From: Dipetalonema caudispina
Taxonomy: Eukaryota > Nematoda > Chromadorea > Rhabditida > Onchocercidae
NCBI GenBank assembly: GCA_013365325.1
Contig: JABVXV010000037.1
Span: 124,001 to 188,000, forward strand
Length of the DNA: 64,000 bases
Direction of reading: 5' to 3'
Shown here: positions 24,171 through 51,100 of the stretch, one piece after another
Numbering within the stretch: the stretch's first letter is position 1
Layout: every line of letters begins with the position of its first letter
Position numbers and translations under genes: made by a program
Notes under the pieces: generated by a model
What the model was told of the DNA's origin: nothing
Seen by the model: the letters and a program-made list of their open reading frames with translations, nothing else
Databases searched by the model: none

Positions 24171-27100
24171 ATGTGTGATGAAGATGATGACGAGGTAATG
24201 GTATTTGAATGCAGCGCTTCATTGGCCGCTAATGCATTTCCGAATTTCGAGGAAATTCGTCGTGCCGGAAAACTTTGCGATGTGGTACTTGTTGTTGGTA
24301 ATGTCAGGTTTGTAGAAAAATCCATTTGCTTATCATATTATGCATATTTTTTGGTCTGTTTTAGAAATTTTCCATATAGAATTTCAATAGTTTCAGGTTT
24401 AGTGCTCATCGTATTGTTCTAGCTGCAACAATTCCTTATTTCCGAGCAATGTTTACAGCTGATATGGCTGAAAGTCAGCAAGAAGAGATTCATTTGAAAG
24501 GTTGATTTTTGTCATATGAAAGTGGTTACTGCATCCAGTCAGTCATATTCAAGCATCTAAGACAGTTTCAATGCTAAGGTCAACCATAAAACTATTCCTT
24601 TAGTTCACCTCTTAGTTATGTTGTAGATGGTGTTGCAGGGTAAGTAGCTCTCGAAAGGCATGAATATTACATAGAGATGGGATTTCTACGGCCTACTAAA
24701 TGTTCGGAAGCAAGGTTTTGGGGTCTCATTCGTGTCCAGGTCCAAGACTTTGAAGTCACAAAGAGTCCTAAGTAAAATCGTTACAAAATATAAAAAGGAA
24801 GACAAATAATGCGAAAAACTGTTATGACTGATATTCTCATTGCTTTCTGTACAGCCTCACAGATGTTCTGATCTGGATTCTTAAATTTTATAAATTGGGA
24901 CTTGGTAGTTAATGGGGATGCGTTTCTTATCTATCTTTCGGTATCTAATTAAAATTGTTTCATTATATTGTAATACAAATTTTCATTTTACATGCTGGAC
25001 TTCATTTTTTTTTTTTTGCTTGTTTCATGAAGATTTCGAGCCGGACACATTGGAGCAATTAATTGCCTTCTCATACACGGGAAGCGTAAGAATAACCGCT
25101 GCAAACGTGCAGAGTATGATGCATGCAGCAAATTTCCTGCAACTAAATGGAATCGTAGATGAATGCTCCAAGTTTCTGAAGTGTAGGTTGCACGCACAGA
25201 ATGTCCTTGGTATACGATCCTTTGCTATGGCTCTCGGCTGCGTATCACTCGTTCTTTCGGCAGGTAGCTAATTGTATGTCTCCTTCCTCCTTATTTATTC
25301 TCCTTCTTTCCGAAATTGCCAAAATAGCTCACTAATAGTCTTCCATAGAATTCGTGTCGTTAGTTATATTTCAGAATGCGTAGCATGCGTTTGTCTGTAT
25401 CAATGGATAGGATATCCGCAAGATCCTCGGAAAATAGTTTAAATTACTGATGTACAATAGGTCATCTCGAGGTAGGGGAGTGGGACGTAAATCGCTGTAT
25501 GTGGAATTTGTTATATTATGAAACGACGAATAAAAGAAGACGAAGACAAAATTATTCTTACTTTATGGTCTATTTCCTTTATTCATTTCAAAGCATGTGA
25601 CGGTTGTACTTCAATGTTCTATTTTTATTTCTGGAAACTAATCATTTAGATTGTTTTCTGCACAAACATTTTCTATCAGTATCGCAAGGTGAAGAGTACT
25701 TGGCTTTATCAATAGATGATTTGGTAACAATATTGAACAGAGATGAATTGTTTGTTGAAAGCGAAGAGCAAATGTTTGATGCGTGTATGCGATGGGTGCA
25801 GCACAATCCTGAAAGGAAGCAGTATTTACCGAGGTAATATTTTTTAGCTAAGACTGAATTTATATATTATAATAAATGGACATTAATTTTGATATTGCTT
25901 AATTGTTTCACCCTAATTTTTTTCTCATTCTAAGTTTCTTTATTTCACAACTGGATATGATTTAATATTAAAGTAGTTGATGGGTTTTTCCTCTTTGGCA
26001 ACGGACAAGTCAGTACATAGAAACAATTATCAGCAGAAATATAAGGTGATTACGAGATGGTATTGTAGTTTGACTTACTTTTTTCAATTTACGGAATAGG
26101 AACCTCTTGAATGATTGCGTTATGACCAAGCTAAAAACACTGATTATTATTATTTGGATGCAAATTCAGCCACATTTGCTATACACTAAAAAACTATTCA
26201 AAACTCAGAATGTTATTCAATGAAAGTTCTTTCTTCATATGCTTTGGTATTGGCTAATTATATTCCATTTCGTTCTTTTCCTGATAGTAAGGTAACTGTA
26301 TACTCACAAATACTGACTTATCAGTGTGACTTTATCTTTTCTTAACAAATCAAATTTCAGGCTACTTACATGTGTCAGGATGCCATTACTGAAGCCTCAC
26401 TTCATAACCGATCATGTAGCCTCTCATCCATTCATTCGTGAATGCCTTGACTGTCGTGATCTAATTGATGAAGCAAAAGACTATCATCTTATGCCAGAAC
26501 GAAGGAAATTCCTCAAGAAATTCAGGTGCAGTTATATCTTTATAGAAATATGAATAAAGAAATGATCCAAAGTATGGTCAGGAAGATCTTAATAAACTCA
26601 GCCGTATCATTTTTGTTGAACTTTTTGCCTTGTCTGATAAGTTTCCATATTCTTTTCATTTAATACAGCCAAGATTTCTTTTTTTTCAAGAGCAGAATTA
26701 AAATTCCTTATGAAAGAAAGCTTTTTAAAATTAAATTTTTCTCTAGGACAAAGCAGAGGTGTTGCTTTGATGTTCCTGGTTTGATCTTTGCAGTTGGTGG
26801 TTTGACGAATGCCGGTGATTCTTTGTCAACTGTTGAAATGTATGATCCAATGACTGGTAAGTGTTTTTTATTACCTTTATTCATCAAACTTTCCAATCTT
26901 GGGCAAATTATTACTACGAAGCGCGAAGTTGTTTGCAGGTAAATGGACATCAGCACAGCCGATGAATTCAATCCGATCACGAGTGGGTGTTGCTGTAATG
27001 AATCGCATGTTATACGCCATTGGTGGTTTCAATGGGCATGACCGACTACGCACCGTTGAAGTTTTTGATCCGGATCAGAATAAATGGACTGAGGTGAATT

Positions 27101-28716
27101 TGAGGAAATAAATAAGGACATGCTCCATTTTATTCCATTTCTCATAAAAAGTGTGGGACTACAAGGGTGTCGTAAGGTGGGGTAACAAAGCGACCCAACC
27201 AAGAGCCAGATCTTATAATTCTCGTTTGCTAGACGCTGTAAAGAATTGCAGGTTTTAAGGCTTAATAACTTTTGTCCTATTTGTGAAAGCTGATGCTTAA
27301 CCGTGTCCTCACATAGTCGTCCCATGAGACTATAGTGCACTGAATGCAGAATGTTGCTATTCCTAATGTATGATGATTTATTTTTTCTTTTGCAGGTAAG
27401 TTCGTTAATTAATAAACGTTCCGCTCTTGGAGCAGCTGTAGTCAATGATCGCCTTTATGTATGTGGTGGCTACGATGGGATTAGTTCACTTGCATCTGTA
27501 GAAGTTTTTAATCCGTGTACAAATCGATGGACTCTGACTACTGCTATGAACAAGCAGAGATCTGCTGCTGGTATAGCTGTTATTGATAATTACATTTATG
27601 GTAAGAATTTGCTGATGCTTTATTTGTAGTTTAGTTTTTAAAAGTGTTCTGCGTATGCACGTGTAAAGGTGTCGTTGGGAAGCTGAAATTGACTTAAGTA
27701 AAGACGTAAAAAAATGCTTTTCAGTAATAGGTGGACACGACGGAATGTCAATATTCAATTCTGTTGAACGTTTCAACGTCGATAGTGGTGAATGGCAAGT
27801 GGTAAAGTCGATGAACACGAAGCGATGTCGTCTAGGAGCTGCGACTGTTCGAGGAAAAATCTACGTTTGTGGCGGGTAAACATTTTATTTTATATCGTAT
27901 GTAATACACTTTTCAATTTGCAAGTGTCTTCAAATATAACAAATTTTTAAATTGTATGGTTCATTAATGCCAAATTTGTCTAAATTCTAGCACCTTTTCC
28001 AGATTTTGTTGTGAGCAGCAGTAGAGTTGTCGGGAGCGTTGATTTTTTTGCAGCTATGATGGATGTCAGTTTCTAAAAAGCGTTGAAGTATATGAACCAG
28101 AGAAGGATGAGTGGAATCCACTGTCACCGATGCATTTAAAAAGAAGTCGAGTATCATTAATTTCCAATGCTGGTGTTCTTTATGCTATCGCTGGGTTTGT
28201 CATTACATTCATTCATTTTGAGAGATAGGAATGGATTAAACGTATTGCTTGATGTCTGGCTTTGTTACCTTTTCTGCATAGGTTTTCGAACAGATCTGTG
28301 GCAAGCTTGCAGCACCACTTACCCATTGTCAAATGATTGCATCATTAAATAGCATGACGCTTCAAATAAATCTTAGAAATCAAAGTTTTGTACGAGAGAA
28401 GTGTCCAGCTATGGTGTAAACATAACTGCTTGGTCAAAAGTGTTCTGGTTTGAGATTTTGCCATAATATACTTCCTCGGAGACTTAAAGTTTCTTTTATT
28501 TGCTCCTTTAGGTATGGGAAATTTGTTGTGTCTTTGATTTCCACTATTCAAAAATTTCATGTAGGTCATTTCAGCTATGACGGCATTTCGAATTTGAGTT
28601 CCATGGAGACCTATAATATTGAGGAGGATAAGTGGACATTAGCAACAAGTATGGTAGCGCACGAAGGTGGCGTTGGTATCGGCGTGATACCATTCCATCC
28701 TAGTAAAATATCATGA
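24171..28716 (+). CDS. KLHL18: KLHL18 orthologue, BTB-BACK-Kelch CUL3 adaptor
   Basis: Substrate-recognition adaptor for CUL3 RING ubiquitin ligases. Eleven exons: 24171-24307, 24397-24500, 25033-25263, 25650-25833, 26361-26525, 26747-26856, 26939-27093, 27396-27600, 27725-27875, 28054-28194 and 28575-28716. All phases match and the CDS is 1725 bases, 574 residues, the same length as human KLHL18. Domains: BTB from about residue 30 ([36 protein letters not shown]), BACK ([20 protein letters not shown]), the family signature [16 protein letters not shown], then six Kelch repeats each with GG and a spaced Tyr/Trp ([37 protein letters not shown] and so on). It ends with the subfamily-typical [12 protein letters not shown]. 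The ATG at 24171 is the first in frame. Nothing is broken or missing. Confidence 0.96.
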
Positions 28717-29473: not shown

Positions 29474-30637
29474 TCAAAGTTCGTCTTTACCCTTAACTTG
29501 TTCCTTATTCTTATTTTCCAATTTCTTTTTCCCATCACTGGTTTTTTCTTTCTTATCCCCTTTCTCGTGCTTTTCCATGCTATTTTCTTCGTCCTTTTTC
29601 ATATTCGTTGTAATGAACTCAGAGAAACTGTTCGCCGTTCGTTTATCCGCCGTATGATAAATGGGCTAAAAGGGGAAAAAAAATGAAAAGCTGAAAAGAT
29701 GGTCAAACTTTCTACTTGTGGATCATTTTTTGAAGAAGTTTTTTTTTTTTTTAATTAAAAAATTCAAAAACTTTAATGATTTAATTTTTTTCTGCAACTC
29801 TGTTATTATTACCATTGTTATCAAACTATATTTGGATTTCATTTTTGCAATGGATGTATTGATGCAAGTTTTTAGAAAACAAAAAAAAAAAGTACTAGTT
29901 GAAGAGACAAACCTTCTTAGATCCTTTGATAAATAGCGCTATGGCAGGTACATCAAATATCGGTAATCCAAGTACTTCGTTATTCACTGAGTTCATTCTG
30001 GCGATTACCAGATTTTTGTTGTTTTTGTAAAGTTCGCCAAGTTTCTCGAATTCCGGCATCGTTCTCTTGCATGCTTCACACCATGGTGCATCTGTAAGAA
30101 CCATAATAGTTGAATTTTTCAATAAATTCTGAAAAAATCCATTCTTTTTAAACTAAATTCCTTTAAATCAGTCATTTTTCAAATCCATTAAATACTTCGA
30201 GATGGTTGATGTTTGAGATGTTGCAGTTACTAAAGAATGATTCAGTGAGACATAACCTGACTGACATCATGAACGGAAATAATCGTTCAGTTGTTTTTTG
30301 AGATGATATTATACTATAGCAAATTAGAAAATGTAGAAACAGTTGTACCATAGGTTAATTTATGTTATAACTTATTTTTTATCTGAAGATAAGATTATAT
30401 GGGAAATACAAAATATTTCAACAATTTTAAGTTGATTATTTAGTCATGAAGTGTTAAATGTTTTCTCAAGAAATTTATGGTAATTCAGTTATCGTCTATT
30501 GATGAATACGCTGCTTGCCGATTAGTTTGAATCTATGTAGCCCTTGGGATGTATACCGCATCTATTGAAATACTAAGGTCCAGCAACTTTTCTACTTTTT
30601 TGTAAGCGATATTGAATGTAGTAATGAATCTATTTTG

Positions 30638-30668
<31 letters not shown>

Positions 30669-32373
30669 AAGTTTTTAATTAGTTTTTAAATTGTTTTTCC
30701 TTATTTGCCTTCTCTTCCAGTATTTTCTTACGTACTCTTCGCAAACCATTTATTTTTTTTTCTCTGTAAATGATGCTTTAGTAATATTAAGTAAAAAGAA
30801 TGAAGCGAACTTACAGAATAATACGAAGGTTGTTCTCTTCGAGTCAAATACTTGCTCTTCGAAGTTTTTCCCTACTAGTTCAATTACAGATTTTTTATTC
30901 CAGTCATCAGGAATTTCGTCACTTTTTAAGAATGGTATTGCTTTACCATCCAAACATGATTGTACGAATGAGATTATTTCTGCCTTTACTATCTACAAAT
31001 TCATTTATTTATATCAGTGAAAATGATATTAGATTTTTTAGATGAATTATTTCATCTTTTGGATCAATGCGAAATGTGAAGAATAAGGTATCGATTCATT
31101 TCGCTGTGTGGTATTATTTTTTTTTTTTTTTGCTACTAATGTGGTTTGGAAGAAAGAGTATGAGGGACAAAATTGTTGGCAATCTTCTATCCTCTGTAAA
31201 GCGATCAAATTGTCGAAATTCACTTAGAAATGAAATTGTGAATTCTTCATTTAGAAAATTCAAGATTTATAATTTATTGGAGAAATACTTACAAAAAATC
31301 CTGAAAAAACTACTTACTTCTTTCATTTCCGCTTTATACTTCTTGAAGTATTTTTCAAGGCTAACAAACAACACACCGGGCACATCTTCCGCTATTAAAC
31401 CGAAAAATTCGATTATTTGCCAATTTTCTTCTATGTCCGAGTTGATATATACAAATCGAACCTAAATACCTGGGTAATTCGGCACTGAATAACTTATTCA
31501 AATTTAGACTTTCTGATAGTATTTATAATATTTCTAGAATTAGGAACGATTCAGGATTCAAATATTCGCTATTAGTTGTTTTTGTAGGTATTATGAAAGC
31601 AAATGTTTCTGAAACAGCAGGGAATCTAAATTTAAGCTGAAGAAATGGAGGTCCGTCTTCAGTACTGTAGAAGGTATCCGAAGATGACTGGATTTAAAGA
31701 TATACTATTAATTAGCCCTCAGGCTTTTTTAAGATTGGGTATTTCTTGAAGTCTTTGTATAGCATTGCTACTTCTATAATAATGATTAATATAAAAATGG
31801 TTAAACCTTGTCTTCAAATTTCTCCGCAGCTTTCTTGAATTCATCCAGATGGTCATCATAATCCTCAGATTCTTTTGATTCAATCAATATCGCAAATTCA
31901 GTATTCTCATTACCACGAAAAATGGACGATCCCGATTCTTTCACATATTCGGTTATCAGATTTTTTTTCTATATTGTATCGATATTGACAAAGTGAGACT
32001 GTCCATTATATCAGTAAGGATATCAATACTGTTTTATAATTCAGTCAGTGAATCTCCTAGTGATGATGTAATTAATTACATGCCAAATTTGGTAGAGTAT
32101 TTAACCTACTACCCTTTTCTCCTTTCTTTCCTTGCTCTTTCTCATTTTCCGTCGATGATGATTGTCTCCCTTCGTTAAACTACTTGTATTTGTTGAACTG
32201 TTTACTCCAATTTGTCCCTTTCCTTTCCCTCACTTCCTTGTTATGCTATCACATTATTCTTAGTAATTAAAATGCCTTAATGTACATCGTTGATAATATC
32301 TAACCTTCATTTCAACTAGTGTTCCAAGTAAGGGAAGAAGCAGAAGTGGACAAATAGGAATTACTCGCCACAT
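29474..32373 (-). CDS. Half-size protein disulfide isomerase-like protein (signal peptide, b', a', KDEL)
   Basis: Predicted soluble ER-lumen thiol-disulfide oxidoreductase or chaperone. Six exons on the minus strand: 32373-32305, 31968-31807, 31461-31318, 30992-30815, 30091-29913 and 29665-29474. All phases match, giving 307 residues against about 490 for ordinary PDI. Exon 1 is a signal peptide (MWRVIPICPLLLLPLLGTL). Exons 2-4 are a PDI b'-like domain (VRFVYINSDIEENWQIIEFF) and linker (GKNFEEQVFDSKRTTFVLFY). Exon 5 is the thioredoxin-like a' domain with APWCEACK, so the active site is CEAC rather than CGHC, and a cis-Pro loop (FDVPAIALF). The last exon has a Lys/Glu-rich tail ending KGKDEL, the ER-retrieval signal. 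No a or b domain exon was found, and intron 1 (336 bases) is too short to hide both. Confidence 0.88.
30638..30667. repeat. A(30) homopolymer in a PDI-like gene intron
   Basis: Thirty consecutive A on the plus strand, inside the intron before the CEAC exon. Possibly a retrocopy tail or slippage tract; its length may be unreliable. Confidence 0.9.
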
Positions 32374-33686
32374 TTCGTCTTTCCTTGCCAGCGGATAATG
32401 GTTGATATGTTGTGATGGCAATAGTAGATGATGGTGCTGATGGCACTTTTGACGACACTTTTCGATCCGGGTAGTCGAAAGGTGTAATATGTGTCCCTTA
32501 CCATTTCTCGCCCTCGTCCCAATTCTCCTCCTTCTAATACTATAACTTGTTTTGCAAAAGACTGACGAGCATTATTTTTTGCATGCAGACAAAATTGATG
32601 ATCATTAGAATTTCATTAAATGAGAAAGATGAATGGATACTGTCGCAATGATTTAATGATGCATTATGCATAATAGAAAATATGTTGATATTATAATTGT
32701 AGTAACTTATATAATGATATCGATATGTATTCGATCTCTTGGATCATTCAATGTTTCTTTATATGAGAATTAGCAGATGAATTTGGATTTTCCATCTTAG
32801 AGGGATGAGTTAGTTTAACCATGCTAATCTAGATATTGATGGATTTTATTAAAAATTTTGCAGCAAATATTCAGTACGTATTAGAAATTATAGGTGACAA
32901 GGCTTATCACAATATATGCTATATTGATGATTGTCATCAATTTTTTCCACATTATTATGAATGGCGAATATCACTACATGTATATATTTTGTATTTAAAT
33001 TTTTTGCTGTTATTTCAATTTGAGTGTAAGATAGGATGCATTCGGCGAATCAGACAGTTATGCAGCAAACAAAACGTTGTTGTATTTGTGGTACGGACAC
33101 TTCTCCCAACGAACAACCGAAGGAAAGCGTTCAATTCATTACGACAGCAATACACTCTTTCCATCCCTGTCCAGCGCTTCTTGAAAGAATGGAAATATTT
33201 CACTCTTTCCTTTTTCCCTAACCAATTCAACTCTTTTGGCATCGGCTCTCATCAAAACATTTCACATCACAAAACGAAAACTTTCGAAAGACCAGTTAGC
33301 AATCGAAAATTAGCTCGATAAGTTTTTTTTTTCTTTTTTTTTTTTTTTTTTTGTGGTATTGAACCAATTCTCCTCACAATTTGGCATATTCATAGCATTA
33401 TTTCACCATAGATTAGAGCTCTCTCTGGAAGCGAGTAAGTTTTAGGAATTTCAGTTTTTTTTTTAGAGAGTAATATGAATGCTTTTATACTATCATCTTG
33501 AAGAGTTCCGTAAAGTTTTTTTCTTCGCTCTATGAAAAACGTCCTCCCACGCGATTCTCAAATGTTTGTTCTCTTTCGATGTGTATTTTTCGTGTTTTTT
33601 AAATTATTTGTAGCTATTGCCTGTAAAAGTTTAATAGTCCGATACCCGTTGTCGCAGTATCTAGAAACATTATCTTGTATTCGTTA
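32374..33686. other. Divergent intergenic region
   Basis: Space between the minus-strand PDI-like gene and the plus-strand gene at 33740; both promoters should lie here. Around 33015-33321 three frames on two strands are open together, including a Cys-containing plus frame (RCCICGTDTSPNEQP). None has a clear start, splice sites and homology, so no gene is called. T-rich tracts lie at about 33319-33352. Confidence 0.5.
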
Positions 33687-48165: not shown

Positions 48166-51100
48166 CTATACTTTTCTCTGTTTTTCTTTTTCAGATTTTG
48201 AATTCGTTCCACTCTTTTTACTAGTAGTGATATTACCCTGCTTATCCGCTTTGTCTGCACTAGAATCTTGTTTATCCCCTTTAGATTCCGGTTTTTCATC
48301 TTTAGATTTTGATTTGTCTCCTTTAGAAGTCAATTTATCTTCATTAGAATCCAACTTGTCTGGTTTTGATTTCTTACTTTCCTTTGATTTCGTCTTTTCT
48401 ATCACCTTTTTATTCATTAGATTCTTATAAAGATCTTCGAGGACACTTGGAATCTCTATCTTTTTACTTTTGCTTTGCACAGCTGCTACCATTCTAAAAG
48501 GATCTAACAAATTAGTCATCTTTTTTTTTTTTTCTAAAGGTTTAAACCAATGCTGTGGGATTTCATTAAAGCGATTTGGCCGTCGGTATCGCAAGTCCAC
48601 GTAGTATATAATATTAGAGATATTACACGACCCATCATATCAGTGGACATCGATTGATTCAGAAATTTTTAAATAGAGAGATTGATATTACTAAAATGTT
48701 GCAAGAAGATTGAATTGAAAACAACAAAGTTGTCTAAAAAGTAGACAGGAATATTTCAACAGTATTTATCTCCCATTTCGTTTACCTGGGTATGTCCTCA
48801 TTGATGAATTGATCCAAATTATGCATCAATTCCTCGTCTACTTTGTTCCATCCTTTGATATATGACAAACGAGCCTTTTCCAGAAAGGACTATAAAATAA
48901 GACGTTGCGCAAAGTGCATGCGGAAGAACAAATATGTCACGAGACATTGCGGTACGATAAGTATTTCCAACTTTTGCTGGTGTATGACTTGTTGTTTTTG
49001 TATTTGGTTATATTTATGGAAACAAATGGAAAATATTACAATAATAGCAGAATGCAGAATTTTTCTGCATCCTTTCCCATATCTTACCTGAAATTTCGAC
49101 GAGTGAAAAAGCAATAGTTAAAATACTGTACATACCTGTATGTCAGGTAAATCGCTTTCTGCAACACGTAAACGATACTTAAAATCATCCAATATTCGAA
49201 GCAAATTACGTTGTGTTACAACACGTTTCAATTCACCACTTGACCTACACCACATCTAAAAATGAATGAAAGATCATTGCGTAACTTTTTTACCAGAACT
49301 ATCCGATGCACAATCTCCTAGTGAATGTATTGATTACACGTTTTACTGTCATACTTGGAATTTTAGAAGATGCTCACATATCGAATGGTTAAATCATTTT
49401 GTTTACTTTACCTTAATTAGACTATCTGCTGATTAAACTATCTGTTGTTGAAACTTTATCAATAAAAAGAAAATGATGTAACTTGTCAAAATTAACATAA
49501 AGTGAAACTCAAAGTTTGTTTCAGAAACCTTAGGATGATATCGTATGATACAATTAATATGCCAATAGTGCATGAAAATTTTTGCAAACTAATATTTTAA
49601 TAAAATGACAATCAAAAGAACTGACTGAATGGTAGTGATGTCAATCACGGAAAAATACGTCGAATAGTTGGCTTATAAGAAATTCGATGTTGTGCAAAGT
49701 ATGCATACCTTTTTAAGAAGATACTCCATGACAAGCGCATGAATTTTCAATTTCTTGGCTCGTTTGATTACGTCATTTAGTTTACGTACGTTACAACTCG
49801 ATGGAAGTAATTTTAATTCATCGAAGAAGTCAATATATTCTTGAGTAAAAATTTCATGCACTTCAGAGCTCTAAATGTAAAGCTGTTTTCTTTCGTCTAA
49901 GTTGTACAAATGATCAGGAAGTAAGCAGAAATTGATTCCTTATTGGATCAGTACGGAAAATTTCCCTCTCCTCCCCCCCTCATATTTAAATATCGATCCG
50001 AAAAGCAACAAAAACACGAACAATTGTGTCTTTGGAATCGTTGGTACAAAAGGAACCGATAAAAACTTTAGGAACTTCCGGTGATTCGAGAATTCGGCTT
50101 AAACTCCACATCAGTGCACCTCTTACTCGAATAAGTTCTGCTGCTCCCACTTGATCTGCCTTATTGAGCACTATTTTAATCTAAACATTATATTTCATTT
50201 TTTTTTTTTTTTTTTTGCATATTATAAAGAGAGAAAGTGGAAAAAGTGACGGTCGGAAGAAAATCGATATTTGATATCTTTAAAAATTGGAATACAACAA
50301 TAGTAGAATAAATAAAAAAACTAAAGTAAATGATGCTTAAAGATCAAGAAGAAATTGATGGCATACTTTTTCTTCATTTCCTTTGAGACATTGTATCACC
50401 TGTTTGTACTCATCGCTGATATCCAATTTTGAAGTATCAAACAAAAGTACAATCATATCGACCTGTACACTAACTCCAACTTATTAAATTGTTCCTTTAT
50501 CACTAAGAAAAATATATATGATTGCAACAATATTGGTAAAAATTCGAACGAAATGATCTCAAATTCTATCATTTCTAGAAAGTCTCACCTTCCCAGCAAT
50601 GTAATTTACGACGGATGCAAAATCATAGCCACGTGATGAACGTTGCTTTTGACCAGATAATATTCCGGGTGTATCCATGAAAGTGATATGTTCCAGTAAT
50701 TTCGACGGAAGTGTTGCACCACGCATTCGTGTTAGGAATGCCGAACCAAACATATTTAATGACTGCAATACAGTATTATCATTCACTTCAATGCAGTTTT
50801 TATTTTTTGTGCATATCAGAATGCTGTGCAGAACTGTTTTCGTGAAATATGACTCCTTTACGTCATTAACGTAATTTTATGCTGACATAGCCACAGTAAT
50901 TTTCCAGATAAGGTCTGCAATGCCAATCGTAAAATCATTCGGCTTAATCGAATTGGAAAAAAAAGGCTATGAATATATCTAATTAATTTACAACAATAAA
51001 AGATTCGTCTGATAACACTTGACAAATCACTTAAAAGCAATTCAATCAAAAGGATAAACCTGAAATGGCAACGTATTATCAGACGCAAGCGATGTTCCCA

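Follow-up and report, generated by a model that had tools for sequence, protein, structure and literature searches.

The window analyzed here, a 64 kb (64,000-nucleotide) stretch of a Dipetalonema caudispina contig, carries on its minus strand a six-exon gene for a half-size protein disulfide isomerase (PDI). The gene spans positions 32373-29474 and encodes 307 amino acids plus a stop in 924 nt of coding sequence (Table 1). All five introns are GT-AG, the exon phases are compatible throughout, and the layout of the product is a signal peptide, a b′ domain, an a′ domain with the active-site motif CEAC, and a C-terminal KDEL. The spliced gene model reproduces exactly the coordinates, protein length, CEAC and KDEL of a preliminary description of this DNA, and spliced alignment of three orthologues (P0001, P0003 and P0005) onto the window returns identical exons all three times. 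In Pfam, residues 27-136 match the b′ half of Thioredoxin_6 (78-183 of its 184 model positions) and residues 161-262 a single Thioredoxin domain, with weaker thioredoxin-like matches on the same a′ region. The closest PDB entry is human PDI, residues 23-264 of the query aligning with 235-475 of the chain (whole-sequence E 8.6e-64). The N terminus is hydrophobic, as judged by hydropathy and not by a dedicated predictor. When the a-b part of the species' own full-length PDI is compared with the whole 64 kb window, only the a′ exon is matched (E 3e-4; the rest at E ≥ 10), and no a/b similarity was found within intron 1. Furthermore, with the full-length PDI as query against the genome, matches on this contig (E ≤ 1) are confined to the exons of the half gene. 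The preliminary description had taken the half-size layout for the true architecture, and the lack of a/b exons in the window, together with the same form in relatives, agrees with that view.

Table 1. Features of the half-size PDI gene, in window positions
Feature	Position	Strand	Basis
5′ leader DNA with protein-level similarity (44%, E 1e-7) to an N-terminal extension carried in frame by the Litomosoides gene model	32391..32525	-	protein-level comparison
Exon 1: ATG and signal peptide MWRVIPICPLLLLPLLGTLVEMK, phase 0 end	32305..32373	-	splice model, spliced alignment, matching hydrophobic N termini of orthologues
Intron 1, 336 bases, where the full-length gene has a and b exons 2-4	31969..32304	-	gene comparison
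Exon 2: opening part of b′	31807..31968	-	splice model, PDB match, spliced alignment
Exon 3: mid b′; 5′ boundary that of the full-length PDI gene in position and phase	31318..31461	-	gene comparison
Exon 4: last part of b′, then the x-linker with the conserved Trp156 and the beginning of a′	30815..30992	-	gene comparison, residue counts
Exon 5: a′ core and active site	29913..30091	-	splice model, gene comparison, residue counts
Active-site codons Cys189-Glu-Ala-Cys192	30069..30080	-	read from sequence
Exon 6: rest of a′, then a tail rich in lysine and the stop codon; 5′ boundary common with the full-length gene	29474..29665	-	gene comparison
Codons for C-terminal KDEL	29477..29488	-	read from sequence

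The leader DNA upstream of exon 1 lies in another frame than the half-PDI gene, and that frame stops just beyond the ATG; it represents conserved leader DNA or, alternatively, an upstream ORF overlapping the gene. On the plus strand, exon-sized ORFs at 24909-28716 contain BTB and Kelch motifs (Pfam) and probably form one Kelch-like gene; its last Kelch ORF, in convergent orientation, comes to within some 760 bases of the half-PDI stop. Elsewhere on the minus strand, an ORF fragment at 50562-50876, which by eye resembles an EHD/RME-1 ATPase, has no Pfam match, and neither has a Lys/Ser/Asp-rich repetitive ORF at 48169-48639 that lies over 21-base tandem repeats (48270-48361).

The half-size form is shared by relatives. 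A protein search returned 25 matches, comprising the half-PDI family (P0001-P0019), the window's own ORF (P0024) and five other proteins. Filarioid orthologues, 76-81% identical over 89-100% of the query, come from Elaeophora, Acanthocheilonema, Wuchereria, Cercopithifilaria, Setaria, two Onchocerca, Litomosoides, Brugia and Dirofilaria; more distant relatives are found in Thelazia, Dracunculus, Ascaris, Parascaris, Toxocara and Syphacia, along with sequence P0019. A profile search, which scored just the 7,987 candidates with most words in common, added partial members from Gongylonema and Anisakis and, at E ≤ 1e-20, three PDIs that do not belong to the family. We take these genera to fall within the suborder Spirurina. 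For Gnathostoma a full-length PDI was found and no half PDI among the matches listed, and outside Spirurina no half PDI was found in the word-limited protein searches, so that its absence there is not proven. C. elegans C35B1.5, placed beside ERp27 in PMC3415087, was considered as an orthologue and dropped, though not disproved; the portions of PMC3772064 and PMC9025465 that bear on it give only expression changes.

In each of the ten relatives run through Pfam, a single Thioredoxin domain is accompanied by one partial Thioredoxin_6 domain, any other thioredoxin-like matches falling over the same a′ region. The b′-a′ form, whose occurrence in related species the preliminary description had proposed to check, recurs with no second catalytic domain in any of the ten. 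The ten filarioid rows have a mean identity of about 86% in b′ and in a′ alike, and nine other filarioid models start with the same kind of signal peptide. For residue counts we used 17 half-PDI rows, after removing P0007 (a near copy of P0006), the partial P0011, P0013, P0026 and P0030, and the window ORF P0024; four imperfect rows were retained, namely P0009 and P0015 (both starting at b′), P0017 (partial) and P0018 (an extra segment at an intron and an uncertain start). The 26 full-length rows used for comparison consist of the species' own gene and 25 among the matches listed (120 of 7,662).

An ordinary full-length PDI of 503 aa with two CGHC sites is encoded in the same genome on contig C255, and comparison of the two genes points to a common origin. 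Three intron positions are exactly common to both, at AAxKFxxK|V (phase 0), VLF|YAPWC (phase 1, the 3′ boundary of exon 4 in the half gene) and K|(I/P)I (phase 0); under simple uniform placement, three exact matches would be expected by chance with a probability of about 6e-8. The exon 1/2 junction of the half gene (phase 0) lies two codons from the exon 4/5 junction of the full gene. Since this junction and the first four introns of the full gene are all phase 0, dropping exons 2-4 keeps the frame. The half gene has one extra intron (after residue 125, preceding exon 4) that the full gene does not have. The first exons of the two genes show no clear similarity, so a new signal-peptide exon recruited to a partial duplicate would look alike.

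In a tree of 48 rows (17 half, 26 full-length and the five outgroup sequences P0127, P0020, P0021, P0027 and P0029; models of three further PDI-like loci of this genome, L024-L026, were left out of the analysis), the half proteins form one clade (100/100) on a long stem (1.16) that joins the 26 full-length PDIs of nematodes. The point from which the clade branches is loosely placed, as the full-length rows group together in just 40% of bootstrap trees. Identity of the half PDI to the species' own full-length PDI is about 40% in b′ and 42% in a′. Together, the tree and the shared introns argue for descent from a PDIA1/PDI-2 gene of the TIGR01130 type, and the gene is both real and old. Presumably, exons 2-4, which encode a and b, were lost before the sampled Spirurina groups diverged, and the diverged half-size paralogue would then have been maintained alongside the full-length gene.

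In human numbering, Cys397, Cys400, Trp396, Pro395, cis-Pro441, the x-linker Trp364 and the b′ pocket residue Phe249 are invariant in all 17 half rows, and Arg461 is present in 16, the exception being the partial Toxocara model. The b′ pocket positions 240, 249, 258, 289, 291, 304, 305 and 318 carry hydrophobic or aromatic residues throughout (17/17), while position 301 is Thr in three rows and Ala in two. Between the active-site cysteines, Gly398 is replaced by Glu (10 rows), Ser (3), Thr (3) or Ala (1), and His399 by Ala (16) or Val (1). The CEAC that the preliminary description proposed to look for in relatives is confined to filarioids (9/17 rows, plus one CEVC), other lineages having CSAC, CTAC or CAAC; the constant of the family is the absent Gly-His pair (17/17), with CEAC as the filarioid state. 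Lys401 is Gln in 16 of the 17 rows, Lys being found only in the window species, Phe440 is Val in all 17, and His256 has given way to Phe (11) or Tyr (6). At Glu391, every half row has Phe, Leu or Met. Loss of this buried Glu was rejected as a hallmark of the half PDI, as Leu also occurs in 8 of the 26 full-length nematode PDIs (25 of them among the matches listed). The species' own full-length PDI (C255:323420-327094) is one with Leu at the buried Glu position of a′ (VLFYAPWCGHC). The 16 C-termini that can be read comprise 12 KDEL, one KQEL, two KTEL and one without such a motif, and the net tail charge in 16 half rows ranges from 0 to +29 (two at 0), against -10 in the species' own full-length PDI.

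We used AlphaFold2 with 22 aligned rows to model the Wuchereria orthologue, which gave a mean pLDDT of 79.8 and a pTM of 0.59, with pLDDT dropping below 50 at residues 1-24 and 283-307 alone. The PDI chains in 7zsc, the human collagen hydroxylase complex, are the top PDB matches in Foldseek (TM 0.69-0.70, rmsd 2.6), followed by other PDIs and the fungal b′-a′ fragment 3wt1.

The half PDI is probably a diverged PDI-2/PDIA1 paralogue that lacks a and b and has been retained as a two-domain ER chaperone/oxidoreductase. Its most likely role, judged from sequence, is that of an ER-resident b′-a′ protein that has a detuned active site and serves few clients. The signal peptide would direct it into the ER and the KDEL-type end would retain it there; the hydrophobic b′ pocket may bind a client or partner, with which the single a′ site would form mixed disulfides. 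The features kept are those required for client binding by b′ and for mixed disulfide formation by a′. Some of the lost features are tied to fast catalysis in the classical enzyme, and the His of CGHC and Glu391 have catalytic roles in PDI. Loss of the Gly-His pair could plausibly alter the redox potential, as the preliminary description had supposed. With Gly-His missing from all rows, and the flanking Lys from all but one of the 17, the a′ site is predicted to react more slowly than CGHC and to be poised differently, which would suit a narrow client set over bulk oxidative folding. In human PDI, K401Q alone is reported to leave 83% of the wild-type ERO1α rate and K57/401Q 54% (PMC5835755). 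The flanking-Lys argument does not apply to the window protein, which retains that Lys. A detuned exchange site is likely; its catalytic direction cannot be read from the sequence, because CxAC sites occur both in TMX1, described as a reductase, and in ERp18.

One alternative is a reducing role, in which the half protein would be a disulfide-breaking factor of the TMX1/ERp18 sort that passes clients to degradation. The Ala at the His position is shared with TMX1 (CPAC, described as a reductase) and ERp18 (CGAC), but the reducing behavior of TMX1 is ascribed to Pro at position 2, which is found in none of the 17 half rows, and the half protein keeps b′ and has no visible membrane anchor; we consider this reading unlikely. 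It is likewise doubtful, though conceivable, that loss of three in-frame exons and detuning of the site made a Spirurina-specific PDI half into a stable subunit that holds a mixed disulfide with one ER partner; speculatively, such a partner could belong to the cuticle collagen machinery or be another secreted product.

A more specific proposal is that the half protein serves as an alternative β subunit, using b′ and the a′ cysteine to engage a collagen prolyl 4-hydroxylase α or another α-like partner. Pirneskoski 2001, cited in PMC9676403, states in its title that b′ and a′ meet the minimum requirement for a prolyl 4-hydroxylase subunit; for the human complex, the contacts that hold the α subunit are reported to lie at a′ Cys397 and in the b′ pocket (PMC9676403). 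The half protein has the proximal a′ cysteine (Cys397, 17/17) and a pocket with eight of nine positions hydrophobic in every row, and its model matches the PDI chains of the hydroxylase complex best. The orientation of the domains in an AlphaFold model, however, depends on known PDI structures, the Thr and Ala residues at position 301 depart from the pocket pattern, and Cys53, the contact in the a domain, is absent. Above all, the sole α subunit found here (C555) retains both of its cysteines, one of which contacts the very a domain that the half protein lacks; this fits a full-length PDI and makes the collagen-hydroxylase role weak, and we regard that role as quite improbable. In the loose exon-by-exon genome search, PF08336 matched at C555 alone, whereas PF13640 matched two other loci and not the catalytic exons of C555 itself, so that further α subunits may have been missed. 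Two other 2OG-oxygenase matches in this genome lie at C353 and C188. An α subunit specialized for the half PDI by loss of the a-domain cysteine was looked for in the same loose search and not found.

That the gene is an annotation artefact with missed front exons, or a decaying pseudogene, is very hard to credit: database models with truncated, extended or partial ends do occur (P0008-P0010, P0014, P0015, P0017 and P0018), but the shared signal-peptide starts, the strong filarioid conservation of both domains with both cysteines invariant, the location of the full-length PDI at another locus with no a/b exons nearby, and the sequence of P0019 (a 1,576-base contig), which lacks an extra segment present in the Syphacia model at the shared intron and so looks like a spliced transcript, all speak against this reading.

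The half PDI is a domain variant of a well-known enzyme family and not a new kind of system. A literature search by title and abstract opening, with few subscription papers covered, met no description of a half-size nematode PDI among the matches listed, and within that reach the protein is undescribed as such. The Brugia PDI that has been cloned is reported as the 487-residue form (PMC5547380), and the thioredoxin-domain proteins reported in the Onchocerca proteome are not linkable to the half-PDI gene (PMC4974336). The half PDI has been kept across the splits of filarioids, other spiruromorphs, dracunculoids, ascarids and oxyurids, and would be an ER protein of parasite lineages.

Compared with nematode PDI-2 and human PDIA1 (P4HB), b′, the x-linker and a′ align throughout and the ER signals are alike (KDEL in the window protein, and KDEL, KQEL or KTEL in 15 of 16 C-termini), whereas a and b are absent, there is one CxxC site instead of two, and the tail is not acidic. 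In place of the four classical domains a-b-b′-a′ there are b′ and a′ only, and in place of two CGHC sites a single CxAC or CxVC site (17/17). On TIGR01130, with a cut-off of 344.25, the orthologues P0003 and P0014 reach 187 and 191 bits (model positions 209-475 and 215-474), against 527 bits for the full-length P0033. CxAC sites are known from TMX1 (CPAC) and ERp18/TXNDC12 (CGAC) (PMC7563315, PMC12781119), in which Ala replaces the CxxC His as it does in the half PDI (CxAC in 16/17, CxVC in 1/17); those proteins, however, have a single a-type domain and no b′, and TMX1 is membrane-anchored. PDI products without some domains are described among human P4HB splice variants, but these are alternative transcripts of one gene, and the account of them in the relevant portion of PMC7640458 names no signal peptide-b′-a′-KDEL form. 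The same domain pair and fold are present in the recombinant b′-a′ and b-b′-a′ fragments of PDI (PDB 3wt1 and 3uem), which are laboratory cuts of full-length PDIs, whereas the half PDI is a natural, inherited gene. It is the natural counterpart of the b′-a′ fragment that biochemists cut from PDI to probe domain roles, and offers a ready comparison for the capacities and limits of b′-a′ with a CxAC site.
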